Of a DNA stretch of 64,000 nt, positions 15,954-40,208 are shown one piece after another. The translations under genes were made by a program, and so were the position numbers. Origin of the DNA: Nitrospira sp. (GTDB taxonomy: Bacteria > Nitrospirota > Nitrospiria > Nitrospirales > Nitrospiraceae); assembly GCA_035968315.1 (NCBI GenBank), contig JAVYIN010000005.1, forward strand, positions 558,001 to 622,000, given 5' to 3'. Under the pieces are notes generated by a model that ran no database searches, was not told the DNA's origin, and was given only the letters and a program-made list of their open reading frames with translations. The stretch's first letter is position 1; the number at the start of each line of letters is the position of its first letter.

Positions 15954-16185
15954 GGTTCACTCCTTGAGAGTCATACATAGTGAGTAGGTCACGTCTTGGA
16001 AGGCGGGCTGAAGAATAGCAAATGGCTTCCGATAAGTGCAAGAACAGGCACTGGATCCATTCACGCGAGTGCGCGCCAGGGCTTGTTGATGTTCAGTGTG
16101 ACGGCGATACCATGTTGAGCTGGTGGCGCTGTACACGGTCGAATGTCCGTTTGACTTCCCCTTCCCTGCCCTCCTAGAATCCTCC

Positions 16186-32192: not shown

Positions 32193-32606
32193 CTAGTCGC
32201 AGGCCCCATCGAGCAGCGGATCGCAGACCAGCGGTCCGATCGTCGTCGGGCGCATATAAGCCGAAGAGGGATCTTGGTACCCGAGCGATCCTTTGAGCGG
32301 CGGACCGCCCGGCATGCCCGGCAATCCCTGCCCCGCCGACCGTAACGATCCCGGGCGGGTGGAACTCGAAATAGAGGCCACACCTTGCACCGCGCTGACG
32401 GACGGTGTCGTTCCTGCCGTCGGCGTGACGGTCAGAGCGGTCCCAACGCCGGCCTGCAAGCTTTGCGTGGAGGGATTTTGCGGATTCGCCGGTGTAGGAG
32501 AGACTTGGGCCATGGCCTGAGGGGCAAGGGCACACAGAGCAGCACAGGCGAGAACACACAGATTGAGGCGCGTCAGAAGTCTTCGGCTGTAAGACCTGCT
32601 ATCCAT
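32193..32606 (-). CDS. Secreted low-complexity hypothetical protein (137 aa)
   Basis: A GGGGG ribosome-binding stretch precedes ATG 32606. The signal peptide ends A-P-Q-A-M-A. The mature part is rich in Pro, Thr, Ser and Gly with no predicted fold, and two Cys near the C terminus (V-C-D-P and G-A-C-D) could form a disulfide. The start codon lies 22 nt from the tRNA 3'-end fragment. Confidence 0.6.
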   Translation of the reverse strand: MDSRSYSRRLLTRLNLCVLACAALCALAPQAMAQVSPTPANPQNPSTQSLQAGVGTALTVTPTAGTTPSVSAVQGVASISSSTRPGSLRSAGQGLPGMPGGPPLKGSLGYQDPSSAYMRPTTIGPLVCDPLLDGACD

Positions 32607-32627: not shown

Positions 32628-32653
32628 TGGTGCCGGAGGCCGGGATCAAACCG
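32628..32653 (-). repeat. Partial copy of the tRNA-Leu 3' end (possible att site)
   Basis: These 26 nt match the 3' end of the tRNA-Leu gene (38285-38310) at 25 positions in the same orientation, including the CCA end and the T-arm. The sequence beyond shows no remaining tRNA structure. This is the usual geometry of an attachment-site duplicate left by integration at a tRNA gene. Confidence 0.7.
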
Positions 32654-32813
32654 CAAGTGCGTAGTGCTTCGATGAATTGTAAGCGCAATCGACTCATCGT
32701 GACAATGGGACACTATCGGCTGGCACGTGCGAGAAAAATGGTGCTGAGGCCTAGGGTCAGCCTGTGAAACCGCGGTGATGAATAGGCTGCGAGTCTGTAG
32801 GCCCGATACAGAC

Positions 32814-33509
32814 TCACCTCCCCTTCCGCAGATCCTCTTCCTTGACGATCCTGCCATCCTCCAGCGTAATTGCACGGTCCGCTTCATAGCCGAATACGGC
32901 GTTGTGCGTGGTGATGAGGATGGCCAGCCCCTTGTCGGCAGCCAGATGTTTGAACAGCGCGATAATGGATTCGCCCGTCGCCTTGTCGAGATTCCCGGTG
33001 GGCTCGTCCGCCACCAGAATCTTCGGATCCACGATCAGCGCGCGTGCGATCGCCACCCGCTGCATCTGTCCGCCCGACAGTTCTCTCGGCAAATGGGTGG
33101 TCCGGTCGCTCAGGCCGACCATCTTCAGTACCTCGGCAGTCCTCCGAGGATCGGTTTGCCGCCCCAGGAACATCAGGGGAAGTTCGACGTTCTCTGAAAC
33201 GGTCAGCGTCGGCAACAATGAGAACTGTTGGAACACGAATCCCAGCACGCCGCGCCTGACCTCGACCAACTCGTCCTCGGAGAGCCCGGCGACTGATTGG
33301 CCGGCCACCATGAGCATTCCGGCTGTCGGCGCATCGAGGCAGGAGAGCAGGTTGATGAGCGTTGTCTTGCCTGATCCGGATGGCCCGAGGATCGACACGA
33401 TCTCGCCGGTCCTGATGGAGAGGTCCACGCCGTCCAGCGCCTTGACCGTCTCGCTGCCTCGATAGTAATACCGTTTGAGTCCGTGGGCTTCGATGATGGT
33501 CTCGTGCAT
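32814..33509 (-). CDS. ABC transporter ATP-binding protein (LolD/MacB type)
   Basis: The 231-residue ATPase has Walker A G-P-S-G-S-G-K-T-T at about 41-49, the signature L-S-G-G-Q-M-Q-R, and Walker B I-L-V-A-D-E-P-T-G-N-L-D. It also has the H-loop I-T-T-H. The E-P-T-G-N-L-D form is typical of the LolD/MacB/FtsE branch. It should power the permease encoded one base upstream. The ATG follows GGGAGG. It is the last gene of the cassette. Confidence 0.92.
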   Translation of the reverse strand: MHETIIEAHGLKRYYYRGSETVKALDGVDLSIRTGEIVSILGPSGSGKTTLINLLSCLDAPTAGMLMVAGQSVAGLSEDELVEVRRGVLGFVFQQFSLLPTLTVSENVELPLMFLGRQTDPRRTAEVLKMVGLSDRTTHLPRELSGGQMQRVAIARALIVDPKILVADEPTGNLDKATGESIIALFKHLAADKGLAILITTHNAVFGYEADRAITLEDGRIVKEEDLRKGR

Positions 33510-33510
33510 A

Positions 33511-34791
33511 TCATCCTCCCTTGCCGATCGCTTCGATGGGCCGCATCGACGATGCCCGCCACGCAGGGTAGAGTCCCGCGAAGAATCCCAGCACTACGGC
33601 GACGAGCACGGTGTAGCCGACGAGGGCCGGAGTAATCTGCACGATCGATCCGGACAGGCCCAGATCGGCCAGCGCTTTGATCGCCTGCTCGACAAGGCCT
33701 GCGGCAATGACCGCCATTGCCGACCCCGCCAGGGCACCGGCAAAACACACCATCAGCGTTTCCAGCCAAATGAGCTGGAAGATACTGCCCCGCCGCGCGC
33801 CAAGCGCTTTCATGATGCCGATTTCCGCCGTGCGCTCATACACGCTCATCAGAATCGTGTTGACGACCCCGATGAGGGCGACGATGACGGCGATGGCGGC
33901 CACGGCGGCGATCATGGTCTGGGCTGTGGCCACCAGGTTGACCAACGTATTCTTCACCTGCTGCAACCCCACCACCTGCACCTCCGGCAGCTTGAGCCAC
34001 CGTGTCTCGAACTCGCGCAGCCTGAACGAACTGAACTCCTTGAGCTTAATGCCGAGAATCGTCAACTGGTTCGGCCGGTTAAAATATTCCCGTGTCGCAT
34101 CGATGGGCAGGAACACCGTCCCGTCGTCCTGGGTGCCGGTCCGCTCCAGCACCCCGACGACCGTGAATTGATGCATGACGGGGTTGGGCTTGCCCGCCGG
34201 CGTGATCGAGGCATAGAAGCTGTCGCCAACCTTGCGTTGTTCGTACTCGGCCGCCTCGAAGCCCAGCACCACCTCATTCTTGCTTCCAGGAGTAAACCAC
34301 CGGCCATCGGCGTACCCCGGCCCCTTCTTGAACCCGAGCCACGGCTTCATGATCAGGAAACTTGGCACATCGATACCGCTGATAACCGTGAAGTTACTGG
34401 CCGCGCCTTCGTCACGGATGCTGCTGGCCTGCTTCTCCGCCACCCCAATGAATATCGGTGTGATGCTTTCAATGTCCGGATCGCTCTTTACTTGTTGGTA
34501 CGTTTCGCCTGGCAGATAGAGCAGCCCCGTTCCGCCTTTGAGCATCATGGTCGCGGCCTCGTAAGGGCAGCCCTTGGCCATGATCATGACCTGGTACCCC
34601 AGCATATTGATGCTCTTGTCGATGGCGCCCCGGTACCCCAGCATAAACCCTCCGAGCGACACGGCGACCGTGACCGCCAGCGCGACGCCGGCGACGGTTA
34701 AGCCTGTGCGCACCGGACGCCGGCGCAGATTCTTGACGGCCAGCACGAGATAGCGCCGGAGCACAAACGGATCTTGGGTTGTTTCGTTCAT
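33511..34791 (-). CDS. MacB/FtsX-type ABC transporter permease
   Basis: The 426-residue protein has one N-terminal membrane helix at about 23-45, a periplasmic MacB-like core domain up to about 280, then three C-terminal helices. It contains the FtsX signature V-V-N-T-I-L-M-S-V-Y-E-R-T-A-E-I-G-I. This is the type VII ABC topology, which moves or extracts substrates in the periplasm. An unusual K-G-C-P-Y-E-A-A-T segment lies in the periplasmic part. ATG 34791 is set by GGAGG; the frame upstream has no coding look. It abuts the ATPase gene. Confidence 0.9.
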   Translation of the reverse strand: MNETTQDPFVLRRYLVLAVKNLRRRPVRTGLTVAGVALAVTVAVSLGGFMLGYRGAIDKSINMLGYQVMIMAKGCPYEAATMMLKGGTGLLYLPGETYQQVKSDPDIESITPIFIGVAEKQASSIRDEGAASNFTVISGIDVPSFLIMKPWLGFKKGPGYADGRWFTPGSKNEVVLGFEAAEYEQRKVGDSFYASITPAGKPNPVMHQFTVVGVLERTGTQDDGTVFLPIDATREYFNRPNQLTILGIKLKEFSSFRLREFETRWLKLPEVQVVGLQQVKNTLVNLVATAQTMIAAVAAIAVIVALIGVVNTILMSVYERTAEIGIMKALGARRGSIFQLIWLETLMVCFAGALAGSAMAVIAAGLVEQAIKALADLGLSGSIVQITPALVGYTVLVAVVLGFFAGLYPAWRASSMRPIEAIGKGG

Positions 34792-34801
34792 TGCATCCTC
34801 C

Positions 34802-35173
34802 TCACTCGAATTCGACCGCGCTCGCGACAAACTGGTATCCGTCGCCATAGGGCACGATCTGCCCTTCCACGCGAGCCCGATGCCCGTTCCGCCTCGGCGC
34901 CACCATCGTGATCTGCTCCAAATCGACCCGCAGCGCCTTCTCGCCCGAGAGGAAAAAGAAGTAACAGCCCATGGTGGTGCATTGTTTCCTGACCGTGCCT
35001 TCAATGGCGACGGTGGTGTGCAGAAAGTCCTTTGGCCTGTCGATGAGATCGGCCACCTCGGCCTTCGGCACGCCCATGAATGCCCCATACTCGTTGGGCA
35101 GGCTCACCATGTACCAGATGAGCACCCCCCCGATGACGAGTGAAAGCGCACAAAGGAACAGGATTGTTTTCAT
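34802..35173 (-). CDS. Membrane-anchored OB-fold-like protein with a Cys-Thr-Thr-Met-Gly-Cys motif
   Basis: The 123-residue protein has one N-terminal membrane segment (F-L-C-A-L-S-L-V-I-G-G-V-L-I-W-Y) and an outside domain of about 90 residues. The domain alternates strands in an OB-fold-like pattern (V-A-I-E-G-T-V, A-L-R-V-D-L, A-R-V-E-G-Q-I-V). A C-x3-G-C motif in the loop resembles metal-related or redox OB-fold proteins. AAGGAG precedes the ATG. It is cotranscribed with the permease (10-nt gap). The fold is my inference. Confidence 0.7.
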   Translation of the reverse strand: MKTILFLCALSLVIGGVLIWYMVSLPNEYGAFMGVPKAEVADLIDRPKDFLHTTVAIEGTVRKQCTTMGCYFFFLSGEKALRVDLEQITMVAPRRNGHRARVEGQIVPYGDGYQFVASAVEFE

Positions 35174-35176
35174 ACG

Positions 35177-35875
35177 CTACTCCTTTCGGGCCTTCGCCTT
35201 CTCAGCCGCCTGCTTGGCGCGCTCGAAATACGGTTCGAATTTCTTTCCGTAGACGAAGAAGTCGACCAGGATTAAATTTTTGCGGATACCGCGGAGCGAG
35301 GCCTCGTAATCAGGCCTGCCGCTCGGGTCGAATGCAGGCGGTACAATCGCCGCGATTTTGTCGGCCTTCGCGCCCGGATCGACCGTGGCGTAGTAGTCGT
35401 GCTTGTAGAAATCTCCGAGCGTCAGCCCCTCGAATTGGCTCAGAAACTCCTTGCTCCTCAACTGGCGCGCCGCCGGGCTTTCCAGCCGCTGAAAGAAGAA
35501 CCTCCTGATCGCACCGGTCTGTGAATCCATCGACAGAAACACCTGAATCACGCCACCCTTGCCGGGCACATTCACGCCATGGACGACTCCGATCTTCTGC
35601 TGGCCTTTGAACACGCTGTAGACGGTATACGGCGTCTCGTAGGTCTCATAGATCGGATCGAGATCGCTGCCCAGCCGCTCCCGCAGCGCGGTGAACAGTT
35701 GGGTGCCGTCTTTGAGCAAAGGAAACTCATTGAGGTCCTCTTTGTACGTCGTCATCTCGGGATACAAATACTTCAGATCCTCGGCCGGATTGGTCAGCGT
35801 GCACCCGATCGCCGCAACGGCCTGTTGCGGCATCGCAAGAACGGCGAACAAAATGAACATGACGATGCGCTTCAT
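35177..35875 (-). CDS. Secreted protein, possibly related to FMN-binding domains
   Basis: The 232-residue protein has a clear signal peptide ending Q-A-V-A-A. The mature middle (K-I-G-V-V-H-G-V-N-V-P-G-K-G-G-V-I-Q-V-F) followed by D-S-Q-T-G-A-I recalls the extracytoplasmic FMN-binding domain of NqrC and NosR. It lacks the S/T-G-A-T motif used for covalent flavin attachment, so the relation is tentative. GGAGGGG precedes the ATG. It lies 3 nt upstream of the OB-fold-like gene. Confidence 0.65.
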   Translation of the reverse strand: MKRIVMFILFAVLAMPQQAVAAIGCTLTNPAEDLKYLYPEMTTYKEDLNEFPLLKDGTQLFTALRERLGSDLDPIYETYETPYTVYSVFKGQQKIGVVHGVNVPGKGGVIQVFLSMDSQTGAIRRFFFQRLESPAARQLRSKEFLSQFEGLTLGDFYKHDYYATVDPGAKADKIAAIVPPAFDPSGRPDYEASLRGIRKNLILVDFFVYGKKFEPYFERAKQAAEKAKARKE

Positions 35876-35884
35876 CCGCCCCTC

Positions 35885-37174
35885 CTACTGATAGAAATAA
35901 TATTGCAGTGTCATGATGGTGCCACAGGGCCCTTGCATCTGCTCGACCTGCCGTTCGACATTAAGCTTGATCCAATGCAAGTTGGAATTGCCAATGTCGT
36001 TCCTGAAATACCAGGAAATTTCCCCGATGATGGAGGCATCGGCGCCAAGCCCCTCCTGCTGAAATCGCCGATATTGCGTGGAGACACCCCATTGGCGAGA
36101 GGCGTGCAGATATTCCGCCTGATACAGTTGCGTGAAGACGGCACTGGACAGGTCGCGGCCTCCGCTCAGTTCGGAAGTCACCGTCAGCAGACCGGTCGGG
36201 ACGGCCTGCCGGTATCGGCCATCGAGGCCGACGCGTTTGGTGGCCACGCGGCTTTCATTGCCTGTATCCATGGCCAGGGCTCGGCGGCGCGTGATGGCAT
36301 CGGGAGACAGCCGCTCCCCTCCCAATATCGACAGTCCGCCTTCCAATCCATATTCGTAACTGTACTTGTTCGCCAAGCTGAGCCTGAGCGCGCCAAGCCC
36401 GCTCTGGCCTTTGAATTTGAGATCGTACCCAGAGCCGGCCAGATAATAGGCGTCATAGTTCACATGGGAATTGATCGAACCCCAGAAGCCGGTATACCAG
36501 TCCCGCTCGAACCCGAAATTGCGGTCGTTGGACAGCTGAAGGACCGTGCCATGGGTGTCGGTCTGGAGATTGAGCCCGAACGGGACATAAAACCGTCCGG
36601 CGCGAAGATTGAATTGCCCGACCGTCTCACTGCGCTGCCTGTCGCTCAAGAGAGGATTGAAAACGTTATACAGGTCCAGATACGCGTTGTGATATTCGAA
36701 CGCCCAATTGGGCCGCCGCTGGCCCTCCATATCGTTGAGCACGGGATTGAAGCCATCGCGCCGCACCAGCCGTCCCTGGAAATCGAGGCTGGCCAAGGTC
36801 GCCGTCGCCGTCGAGAACTTTTTCAGCGCTTCGAACCCAATGGATTGGCGGCTGGCGGACTTGCCCCGCTCGTTCATATCGAACTGGGACATGACTTCCT
36901 TTCTGAAGCCGAAATTCTCGCCAAACAAGGCCTGCTGCCACGAGCGAGGGGCCTGTTCAGGAGCGGACTGCGGCGCCGGAAGCTCAGCGAGGTCCGCGAA
37001 CGGATCGGCCTCGACGCCAACCGCTGTGTGAGACTGCGCGGCAGACGGCAGACCATCCGCGGATGCCGCCGCCGCGTCAATCGTCCACGCCGCACATGGC
37101 GCAAGCAGAAGACTCCCCAAGAGCGCCACCACGATGCCAAGCAGTCGCTGCTGGCTTGTTGCACGCACCACCAT
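35885..37174 (-). CDS. Outer-membrane beta-barrel (porin-like) protein
   Basis: The 429-residue protein has a signal peptide, a Pro/Ala-rich linker to about residue 80, then a long series of alternating amphipathic strands with many Tyr and Phe. It ends L-Q-Y-Y-F-Y-Q, resembling the C-terminal signal recognised by the BAM machinery. It looks like a substrate channel or structural barrel of the DUF/porin type. It heads the transport cassette with a 9-nt gap to the next gene, so it may give the ABC system an outer-membrane partner. Confidence 0.75.
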   Translation of the reverse strand: MVVRATSQQRLLGIVVALLGSLLLAPCAAWTIDAAAASADGLPSAAQSHTAVGVEADPFADLAELPAPQSAPEQAPRSWQQALFGENFGFRKEVMSQFDMNERGKSASRQSIGFEALKKFSTATATLASLDFQGRLVRRDGFNPVLNDMEGQRRPNWAFEYHNAYLDLYNVFNPLLSDRQRSETVGQFNLRAGRFYVPFGLNLQTDTHGTVLQLSNDRNFGFERDWYTGFWGSINSHVNYDAYYLAGSGYDLKFKGQSGLGALRLSLANKYSYEYGLEGGLSILGGERLSPDAITRRRALAMDTGNESRVATKRVGLDGRYRQAVPTGLLTVTSELSGGRDLSSAVFTQLYQAEYLHASRQWGVSTQYRRFQQEGLGADASIIGEISWYFRNDIGNSNLHWIKLNVERQVEQMQGPCGTIMTLQYYFYQ

Positions 37175-37215
37175 GTCCTTGCCGCCTAGGATCGGCCAAT
37201 TGTGCGTGATTCCAG

Positions 37216-37581
37216 TCAGTACGATTTCATGAGCCCCTTCATATCTCGATGCGCGATGGCCATCGCGTCAGTCTCTTCAGCCGCCTTGGCATAGATTGCC
37301 GCGAGATTTTGGCAATGTTGAATCATGTCGATCTTGGAGGAGACCACCCCGCGTGTCGTTGGCCCCGGATTCTTTTGATACTCCTCCGCCATGACCAGCA
37401 TATCCTTCGCGCGCTGGCGGAGATGGACGGCCTCCTGCGCATACCAATTTTCGAGCCCGCCGTGATCGTTTTTGGCGACAAGCTCTTGAGGCGGACTGGC
37501 AATGACGGCGCAGGCCACGACTCCCACGATCATCACAATGGCGATCAACCCTTTCACAATAGTATTCCCTATTTTCATCAT
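37216..37581 (-). CDS. Small exported helical protein, possibly a lipoprotein
   Basis: The 121-residue protein has a hydrophobic leader followed by V-V-A-C-A, a possible lipobox with Cys24. The mature part is helical and charged (E-A-V-H-L-R-Q-R-A-K-D-M-L) with two conserved-looking patches around N-W-Y and H-C-Q-N. GGGAG precedes the ATG at about ten bases. It precedes the barrel gene by 41 nt and is likely in the same transcript. Confidence 0.65.
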   Translation of the reverse strand: MMKIGNTIVKGLIAIVMIVGVVACAVIASPPQELVAKNDHGGLENWYAQEAVHLRQRAKDMLVMAEEYQKNPGPTTRGVVSSKIDMIQHCQNLAAIYAKAAEETDAMAIAHRDMKGLMKSY

Positions 37582-37833
37582 GATGCGGTTCTCCCTTGTT
37601 GCGGTGCATCGTGGAGATGCACCATCCGATGGTTATGACACCGACCCACCGACTATGTTTTTCTACCGTTCAGACATGATGCATTCCGTATGTGACTCAC
37701 GGGCGATACCTGTTCAGCACTCCGGCGATACCCATCTCCTCCCAAAATGAGACGGGATGCCAGAGGGTACCCCCTGAGCATGGAACGATCTATATGACAG
37801 CGAGCGCGCGATTGCGCGGAGTGGCAAAGAGAA

Positions 37834-38205
37834 TCAGATGCGAAGCACGGAAATCTGAAGCAGAAGATCCTGAGGAGAATTGTCCGGGGGACGATCGTGT
37901 AAACGGCTGCCGCGTGAAGGAGTCATTGCACGACCCGCGACCGAGGCGCTTGCCTCAATACACATCACGTGGCCATCTCTTGAGAAATGAGACTTATCGA
38001 CAGACTGCACGCCGAGCGTCTTAAACATATCGCACACCTGATAGACGGGTGCCTCTTCAGGAGTGGAACAGCCGGCGCCCATGGCCTTAGCCGGAACACT
38101 CATCGCCGGAAGAAGGCAGGCATAGGCATTGAAGCTCAAGGCAGAAAAGAGGATGACGATTGAAACAGCGAGGAGAGAACGGAAGGAGAAAGGAAATGCA
38201 TTCAT
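37834..38205 (-). CDS. Secreted Cys-containing protein (123 aa)
   Basis: The signal peptide ends S-F-N-A-Y-A. The mature part has Cys residues in A-C-L-L-P-A-M, G-A-G-C-S-T, Q-V-C-D-M-F-K-T-L-G and V-M-C-I-E, which could bind metal or form disulfides. The last 30 residues look unlike the rest (Arg, Pro and Asp-rich), which may mean a recent frameshift or simply a loose tail. There is no clear ribosome-binding site. It lies 79 nt inside the tRNA-Leu gene, at the edge of the flanked segment. Confidence 0.55.
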   Translation of the reverse strand: MNAFPFSFRSLLAVSIVILFSALSFNAYACLLPAMSVPAKAMGAGCSTPEEAPVYQVCDMFKTLGVQSVDKSHFSRDGHVMCIEASASVAGRAMTPSRGSRLHDRPPDNSPQDLLLQISVLRI

Positions 38206-38284
38206 AGCGACACTATATGCCGATCGACAGCACCCGTCAACGTAAGGGGAGAAGCCGCTATGCCAGAAAATGACGGGCTGATGA

Positions 38285-38374
38285 TGGTGCCGGAGGCCGG
38301 GATCGAACCGGCACGGGCCTTTTGGGCCCGAGGGATTTTAAGTCCCTTGCGTCTGCCTATTCCGCCACTCCGGC
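38285..38374 (-). tRNA. tRNA-Leu (anticodon UAA)
   Basis: The minus strand folds as a class II tRNA. The acceptor stem GCCGGAG pairs with CTCCGGC, followed by encoded CCA. The anticodon arm AGGGA-CTTAAAA-TCCCT gives anticodon TAA, a long variable arm GGGCC/GGCCC follows, and the T-arm holds GGTTCGATCC. Length is 90 nt with CCA. The variable arm and U8 region fit leucine. Confidence 0.95.
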
Positions 38375-38571
38375 TACCAGGCTGGCGAAACAGCTTCCCA
38401 CCGGCATTCTCGCACAGCCTCCACGCTGCGACGTACCGAACAAAGTACGCCTCGCATGTCAGCTCACTGCGGCCTTGGTGGAAACCTGTTTGGCCAGCCT
38501 GAGTCTTCTACGGCAAACACGGCGGGGACTCTAACATCGAGGTCCTGGGGGGTCAAGCAGGTGCCGGGGAA

Positions 38572-39034: not shown

Positions 39035-39380
39035 CGCATGCCTCCTGGTTGTTGGTGAAGATGCTGAAGGGTTTCTTCTGCCTCGCCCTTCTACCAGACC
39101 CTATCAGCAGGTCCCGTGCCAGCCCGAAATGAGCCCGATTTGCCGCAAAATAGGTGCTGCGCACCTCTGAGGATTAAGTCCGCCTCATGAACGGTGCACT
39201 TTTCGCGACAACCGGCAACACAGTCGTTTCAGAAATCTCACACTTCGAGACTTTCGTCCCGGCAACATGGCTCTGGGCTTTGGGTTTTCGCCGAGTAAAC
39301 AGGCAGGCCTTCACCTCCCGTTGCTTGCAATGGAGGTTGGTCTTCCCTATGATCCGCGAACGATCGTGATTGGAGATGGC

Positions 39381-40208
39381 ATGGGCTCGTTCGCAGAAAT
39401 TCCCTACCCGCATATCGATCCTGTCTTTCTCGAACTCGGACCGCTCCAGTTTCGCTGGTACGGGTTGATGTACCTCATCGGCCTCACGGCAGCCTACTTC
39501 CTCATCAAGCGCACGGTGGCAGCCAAGCAGCTTCCGCTCGGGCCGGACCAGATTTATGACATGGTGGTGTTCGCCGCCTTCGGGGTGTTTTTGGGCGGGC
39601 GCCTCGGCTATACACTGTTCTACAATTTCCCCTACTACTCGCAGCATCCGGAGAAGATTCTGGCCGTCTGGGAAGGCGGCATGTCGTTTCATGGCGGGCT
39701 TATCGGCACCATCGTCGCGCTCATTTGGTTCAGCAAACGCCGGGGCATTCCCGTCTATACGGTCGCCGATCTGGCCGCCTCTGTCACGCCGATCGGATTG
39801 GGATTCGGACGGATGGGGAACTTCATCAATGGAGAACTCTACGGCCGGGCCACCGATGTCGAGTGGTGCATGGTGTTCCCCAGCGGCGGACCGGCTTGCC
39901 GGCATCCCTCACAGCTCTATGAAGCCTCGCTCGAAGGGGTGTTGTTATTCACAGTAGTGTGGCTGGTGGGCCGGAGATCCACACCCCCGGGCACGCTCTG
40001 CTGGACCTTTATCGCGGGCTACGGGATCTGCCGGATGTTTGTGGAGCTCTTTCGTGAGCCGGATCTCCATTTGGGCTTTGTGCTCGGCCCCTTTTCCATG
40101 GGCCAGCTCCTCTCGGCGCCGATGGTGATGCTGGGCGTCTTCATGCTCGTGTGGGGCTATCACAAGCGCGCCCTCGATCAGTCCCGCTCAATGCCCCCGC
40201 TTCAATAA
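39381..40208 (+). CDS. lgt: Prolipoprotein diacylglyceryl transferase
   Basis: The 275-residue inner-membrane enzyme transfers diacylglyceryl from phosphatidylglycerol to the lipobox cysteine, the first step of lipoprotein maturation. Family motifs are F-R-W-Y-G-L-M-Y, F-H-G-G-L-I-G-T and G-R-M-G-N-F-I-N-G-E-L-Y-G-R, with R-H-P-S-Q-L-Y-E-A later. There are about seven membrane helices. ATG 39381 has GGAG six bases upstream; the open frame before it is not coding. It serves the many lipoproteins encoded in this window. Confidence 0.95.
   Translation: MGSFAEIPYPHIDPVFLELGPLQFRWYGLMYLIGLTAAYFLIKRTVAAKQLPLGPDQIYDMVVFAAFGVFLGGRLGYTLFYNFPYYSQHPEKILAVWEGGMSFHGGLIGTIVALIWFSKRRGIPVYTVADLAASVTPIGLGFGRMGNFINGELYGRATDVEWCMVFPSGGPACRHPSQLYEASLEGVLLFTVVWLVGRRSTPPGTLCWTFIAGYGICRMFVELFREPDLHLGFVLGPFSMGQLLSAPMVMLGVFMLVWGYHKRALDQSRSMPPLQ

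Follow-up and report, generated by a model that had tools for sequence, protein, structure and literature searches.

A probable island without an integrase at the 3' end of tRNA-Leu(UAA) in Nitrospira

How did a second copy of the 3' end of tRNA-Leu(UAA) come to lie seven genes away from the tRNA gene itself in a Nitrospira-type genome? The genome (G000) is 3.11 Mb in size, and the window, meaning the whole stretch of 64,000 nucleotides that was analysed, is on its contig C5. An earlier note had proposed that the DNA between the two copies is a decayed or mobilised tRNA-targeted island, with the relic of a second tRNA gene as the alternative. We conclude that the 5.63-kb segment is very probably a horizontally acquired island in the 3' end of tRNA-Leu(UAA), of a cis-mobilizable-element-like kind, with its integration genes either gone or acting in trans.

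The repeat pair and the segment between its copies

The tRNA-Leu(UAA) gene is intact and occupies 38285–38374 on the minus strand, as called by ARAGORN and by Rfam RF00005 at 56 bits. Both placements confirm that its 3' end points toward the segment. The last 26 nt of the gene (38285–38310, minus strand), comprising the T-arm, the acceptor 3' strand and CCA, form one member of a direct repeat. The other member is an orphan copy at 32628–32653, also on the minus strand; the tRNA is the 'attL' end and the orphan is 'attR'. The two are equal at 25 of 26 positions, in the same orientation and including CCA, which reproduces the earlier count, and the single mismatch is a C to T in the T-loop, read on the tRNA strand. 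When the 26-mer is scored on both strands of the window (128,000 positions), the best values are 26/26, 25/26 and then 19/26. Throughout the G000 genome, only these two sites match with three or fewer mismatches, there being no third, and a backwards control of the 26-mer has 0 matches. Given the drop from 25/26 to 19/26 and the lack of a third genomic site, the match is not due to chance, a reading of negligible probability. The repeat stops at 26 nt: over the next 40 nt upstream, the similarity of the two copies is equalled by about 8–10% of random windows.

The segment holds seven genes, all on the minus strand, in agreement with the earlier note. A Pfam search of the segment confirmed that it has no integrase, or any other mobility gene, and PF00589 is absent near the segment in G000 among the matches listed. 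The only DNA that is not cargo is a 42-bp spacer from the cargo promoter to the tRNA 3' end (38243–38284) and a 160-bp non-coding spacer from the left copy to the cargo (32654–32813).

Beside the 5' end of the tRNA is a palindromic sequence of about 125 bp (38378–38501), with 25-bp arms that are 88% complementary. Nitrospira genomes have similar sequences at numerous positions; this one is not found at the equivalent site of the closest genome (G014), and it appears to be a dispersed MITE- or REP-like element. Elsewhere in the window, 2822–2858 gives one match to the CRISPR direct-repeat family CRISPR-DR9 at the gathering score.

Empty sites and other occupants of the tRNA gene in the genus

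The orphan copy is flanked by a gene for a 137-aa protein (32193–32606, minus strand), and to the right of the tRNA is lgt (39267–40208, plus strand), which is conserved across the genus. We searched 79 genus genomes for the 137-aa gene and tRNA-Leu(UAA). In ten of these (G022, G025, G026, G030, G033, G065, G070, G077, G094 and G095), the 137-aa gene directly follows the tRNA, 39–81 bp past its 3' end, with nothing between. Relatives with an empty tRNA-Leu site lacking 32654–38284, which the earlier note had named as the thing to look for, are thus present in the genus. Assembly artefacts are no explanation for them, since G022 is a finished genome in a single contig, and the site in G065 (Nitrospira sp. 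CG24D) is deep inside a 101-kb contig.

Because ten genomes have the tRNA directly before the 137-aa gene, that order is the older state. In G000, the orphan copy is located 21 bp upstream of the same gene, and it marks where the tRNA formerly ended. The segment is an insertion, and its ends are exact. The earlier alternative, in which the segment is ordinary chromosome and a second tRNA-Leu gene has decayed to leave the left copy as its remnant, can tolerate the loss of tRNA similarity past the 26 nt, and there is a chance local match upstream. That upstream sequence is tRNA-like no more than by chance, and in the ten genomes, the 137-aa gene is directly behind a single tRNA-Leu(UAA), with 32654–38284 absent. 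The relic is excluded because the left copy stands where the tRNA end stands in the empty genomes, and we regard it as extremely unlikely.

The same tRNA gene is occupied by other DNA in other genomes. The closest genome to G000 is G014, with a UvrD-like protein 91% identical, and it is collinear with the window at 88–91% DNA identity on both flanks. The left flank loses homology at 32513 and the right flank at the tRNA, and the 5.3-kb insert between them is unrelated, encoding a GDSL lipase, an OPT transporter and a Tll0287-like protein. In G096, the insert is 2.9 kb with a multicopper oxidase. Neither insert has a copy of the tRNA end above chance, and therefore insertions here need not all be site-specific.

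A second group of occupants, in G017, G004, G090 and the pair G091/G092, ends in 58–62-nt copies of the tRNA 3' end that start in the anticodon loop. Those of G017, G004 and G090 bear integrases. The G017 element is 10.4 kb with a 365-aa tyrosine integrase adjoining the tRNA, the G004 element also has its integrase adjoining the tRNA, and the G090 element is 12.7 kb. The 26-nt copy of G000 starts in the T-arm and belongs to another sub-site class, T-loop/junction (PMC4383910). An extension of the G000 repeat to the anticodon loop, as in the G017/G004 class, was considered and rejected, as the 11/14 match found is equalled by about 9% of random windows. The difference in sub-site implies a different integration enzyme for G000, if one was used. 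The earlier note had suggested a search for an integrase in relatives. Elements with integrases do occupy this tRNA gene there, although their crossover sub-site is another (58–62 nt, anticodon), and so none of them is the demonstrated partner of the G000 island.

Several further observations concern this tRNA. In G091 (L124:3578-11592), and likewise in G092 (L125), there are two tandem segments at tRNA-Leu(UAA), one about 4.7 kb and the other about 3.1 kb long, and a 55–58-nt copy of the tRNA 3' end closes each of them. Their cargo includes a 1454-aa histidine kinase and an amidohydrolase, and no homologues of the G017/G004 integrases were found in them. The tRNA-Leu(UAA) of G014 (L035) has a compensated change in the acceptor stem, GCCCGAG/CTCGGGC versus GCCGGAG/CTCCGGC in most relatives. 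ARAGORN calls a second tRNA-Leu at the orphan 3' copy of G090 (L123:16302-16391), which is probably an integration scar and not a gene (compare PMC9897764). Finally, a contig of G028 has, at its end and upstream of the intact gene, a 39-nt copy of the 5' half of the tRNA (G028:C152:9413-9451; L045), which is possibly an assembly or excision junction.

The cargo operon and its distribution

The operon has its own sigma-70-like promoter, TTGACG-17-TATAGT, at 38212–38240 on the minus strand, and cross-genome homology of the cargo DNA starts here. It ends on the left at the stop codon of the seventh gene. Genes 1 (37834–38205, 123 aa) and 2 (37216–37581, 121 aa) belong to no known family. Gene 3 (35885–37174) encodes a 429-aa protein with many predicted beta-strands and no Pfam family, probably an outer-membrane beta-barrel. 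The 232-aa product of gene 4 (35177–35875) is strongly conserved across phyla, also has no Pfam family, and probably carries a signal peptide, judged by eye. AlphaFold models of these two proteins are of low confidence, and a 'LolA-like' label for the 232-aa protein was dropped when no support for it was found. Gene 5 (34802–35173) encodes a 123-aa DUF4920-like protein with a conserved Cys pair; five of seven homologues match DUF4920 (best E 4e-5). Gene 6 (33511–34791) is a 426-aa FtsX/MacB_PCD permease, LolCE-like, and gene 7 (32814–33509) a 231-aa MacB/LolD-type ABC ATPase.

By Pfam, the operon has an ABC_tran ATPase with an FtsX/MacB_PCD permease, as a MacB/LolCDE-type ABC exporter would. 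The two proteins match these families, but they fall below the curated equivalog cut-offs, with 215 versus 307.75 bits for LolD and 90 versus 362.45 bits for LolCE. Unlike in the known family, the partners are an unclassified beta-barrel-like protein, a probably exported 232-aa protein and a DUF4920-like protein. Our best guess from these matches is that the operon probably encodes a trans-envelope ABC export or transport system. A role in anti-phage defence was considered and set aside, the only matches being to generic ATPases and permeases.

The cargo is rare among relatives. The 429-aa protein occurs in just one of the 78 other genus genomes, that of CG24D. With G000 included, 5 of 396 genomes of the phylum have the 232-aa protein; in one of the five, the match is distant and the remainder of the operon is missing. 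CG24D, G234 and G169 share all seven genes and their order with G000, and DNA homology between G000 and G234 spans exactly 32814–38242, beginning at the operon promoter and stopping with the final stop codon. The conserved cargo proteins of G000 and CG24D are 93% identical in amino acids, versus 69% for the flanking UvrD-like protein and 81% for Lgt. The comparison of the enclosed genes that the earlier note had proposed thus gave a foreign distribution, by rarity and by excess identity to CG24D, while composition contributed little; the GC content is not clearly foreign (58.5% versus 59.7%), and we dropped the argument from composition as too weak a signal.

Outside the phylum, a five-gene core is syntenic in Bryobacter and another member of the Bryobacterales (Acidobacteriota), in a Deltaproteobacterium and in a Myxococcales MAG, and at least partly syntenic in a Planctomycetota MAG; the combination of partners is syntenic in at least three phyla. 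The Nitrospiraceae copies of the cassette form one clade. No flanking direct repeats were found around the cassette in the Bryobacter, Bryobacterales, Deltaproteobacteria and Myxococcales genomes. In the Myxococcales MAG (L092:13321-14066), the ABC gene of the cassette overlaps or directly adjoins a tRNA-Arg(TCG) gene at its 3' end, again with no flanking repeat found.

A second site of entry and the origin of the island

In CG24D, the tRNA-Leu site is empty and the cassette is elsewhere, between 115-bp direct repeats of intergenic sequence. These (G065:C87:170336-170450 and 175994-176108; L077:10336-10450 and 15994-16108) are 95% identical, their differences fall in the copy adjoining the cassette promoter, and the repeat contains a promoter-like TTGACA...TATAGT. 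The equivalent places in G000 (C5:784467) and G014 (C32:61251) have a single copy of the repeat between collinear flanks, which is an empty site. Since filled and empty sites are reciprocal in G000 and CG24D, the same cassette entered the two genomes at two places, on both occasions between direct repeats of local sequence and without an integrase. Counting G234 and G169, it occupies four different loci in four Nitrospiraceae genomes, with no clear short-range flanking repeats in the latter two. Whether the unit from promoter to stop codon (32814–38242) is recurrently mobile in its own right, settling at unrelated places without its own integrase, is a question that these loci raise; we consider it quite doubtful.

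The absence of an integrase from the segment leads us to regard it either as a stripped remnant or as the product of an enzyme supplied in trans. Incoming DNA with a copy of the tRNA 3' end would have crossed over with the resident gene within its T-arm region. This would have rebuilt an intact tRNA at one end and left the former 26-nt tail at the other, beside the 137-aa gene. Only cargo is left, a seven-gene operon with its own promoter. Most likely, the cassette either travelled in a mobile element that inserted itself in the T-arm region and has since lost its own genes, or had no integrase and was recombined as a passenger in trans. We infer that a site-specific recombinase made the join and that the integration genes were lost. 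In the earlier reading of a decayed or mobilised tRNA-targeted island, then, the insertion holds by the empty sites and the distribution of the cargo, while the action of an integrase stays at the strength of that inference.

The cargo could instead have come by homologous or illegitimate recombination, for example after natural transformation; the 26-nt match would then have been the micro-homology, and a site-specific integrase never involved. The lack of an integrase in the segment suits this, as do the four places of the cassette in four Nitrospiraceae genomes, its position between 115-bp intergenic repeats in CG24D, and the want of clear short-range repeats in G234 and G169. Against it, the G000 junction falls exactly in the classic T-loop/junction sub-site (PMC4383910) of this tRNA, which integrases use as a hotspot in the genus, and we think this course of events unlikely.

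This kind of event is already known; the instance is new. An intact tDNA with a same-orientation 3' fragment, and relatives with an empty site, are as in other tRNA-targeted genomic islands. CIMEs are islands without integration and transfer genes that keep attL and attR (PMC5704250), and by its sequence, the G000 island would be one such: it is flanked by the tRNA 3' end and a direct repeat and has only cargo, with no integrase. As with CIMEs, the same tRNA is a hotspot for integrase-bearing elements and for the tandem integrase-less segments of G091/G092, which hint at accretion but are only suggestive. Unlike with CIMEs, the integrase-bearing elements of relatives use another sub-site, no active element of T-arm specificity was found, and no sign of mobility, or of accretion with an active element, was seen in the G000 island. 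The ssrA islands of Dehalococcoides have 20-bp T-loop repeats, and several lack an integration module (PMC3146451). They share with G000 short direct repeats of an RNA gene 3' end (20 bp versus 26 bp), a crossover in the T-loop region, integrase-less islands and variable cargo at one site, but theirs is a tmRNA with a known serine recombinase module, whereas no module is known for the tRNA-Leu(UAA) island of G000. Islander-type tDNA islands of the T-loop/junction class are required to have a tyrosine integrase gene inside (PMC4383910). The G000 island is like them in that a tDNA and a displaced 3' fragment in direct orientation mark its two ends, and in its size above 2 kb; without a tyrosine integrase gene, it falls outside the definition of that database.

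For Nitrospira, the result is an insertion located to the single nucleotide, with empty sites that are reciprocal: CG24D has one at tRNA-Leu, where G000 has the cassette, and G000 has one at the place that the cassette occupies in CG24D. In this genus, tRNA-Leu(UAA) is a hotspot for cargo. The cargo itself identifies an uncharacterised, probable envelope-transport operon that has moved between phyla. If its recurrent mobility is true, this would point to trans-mobilisation, or to integration of circles by an unrecognised, target-flexible route.
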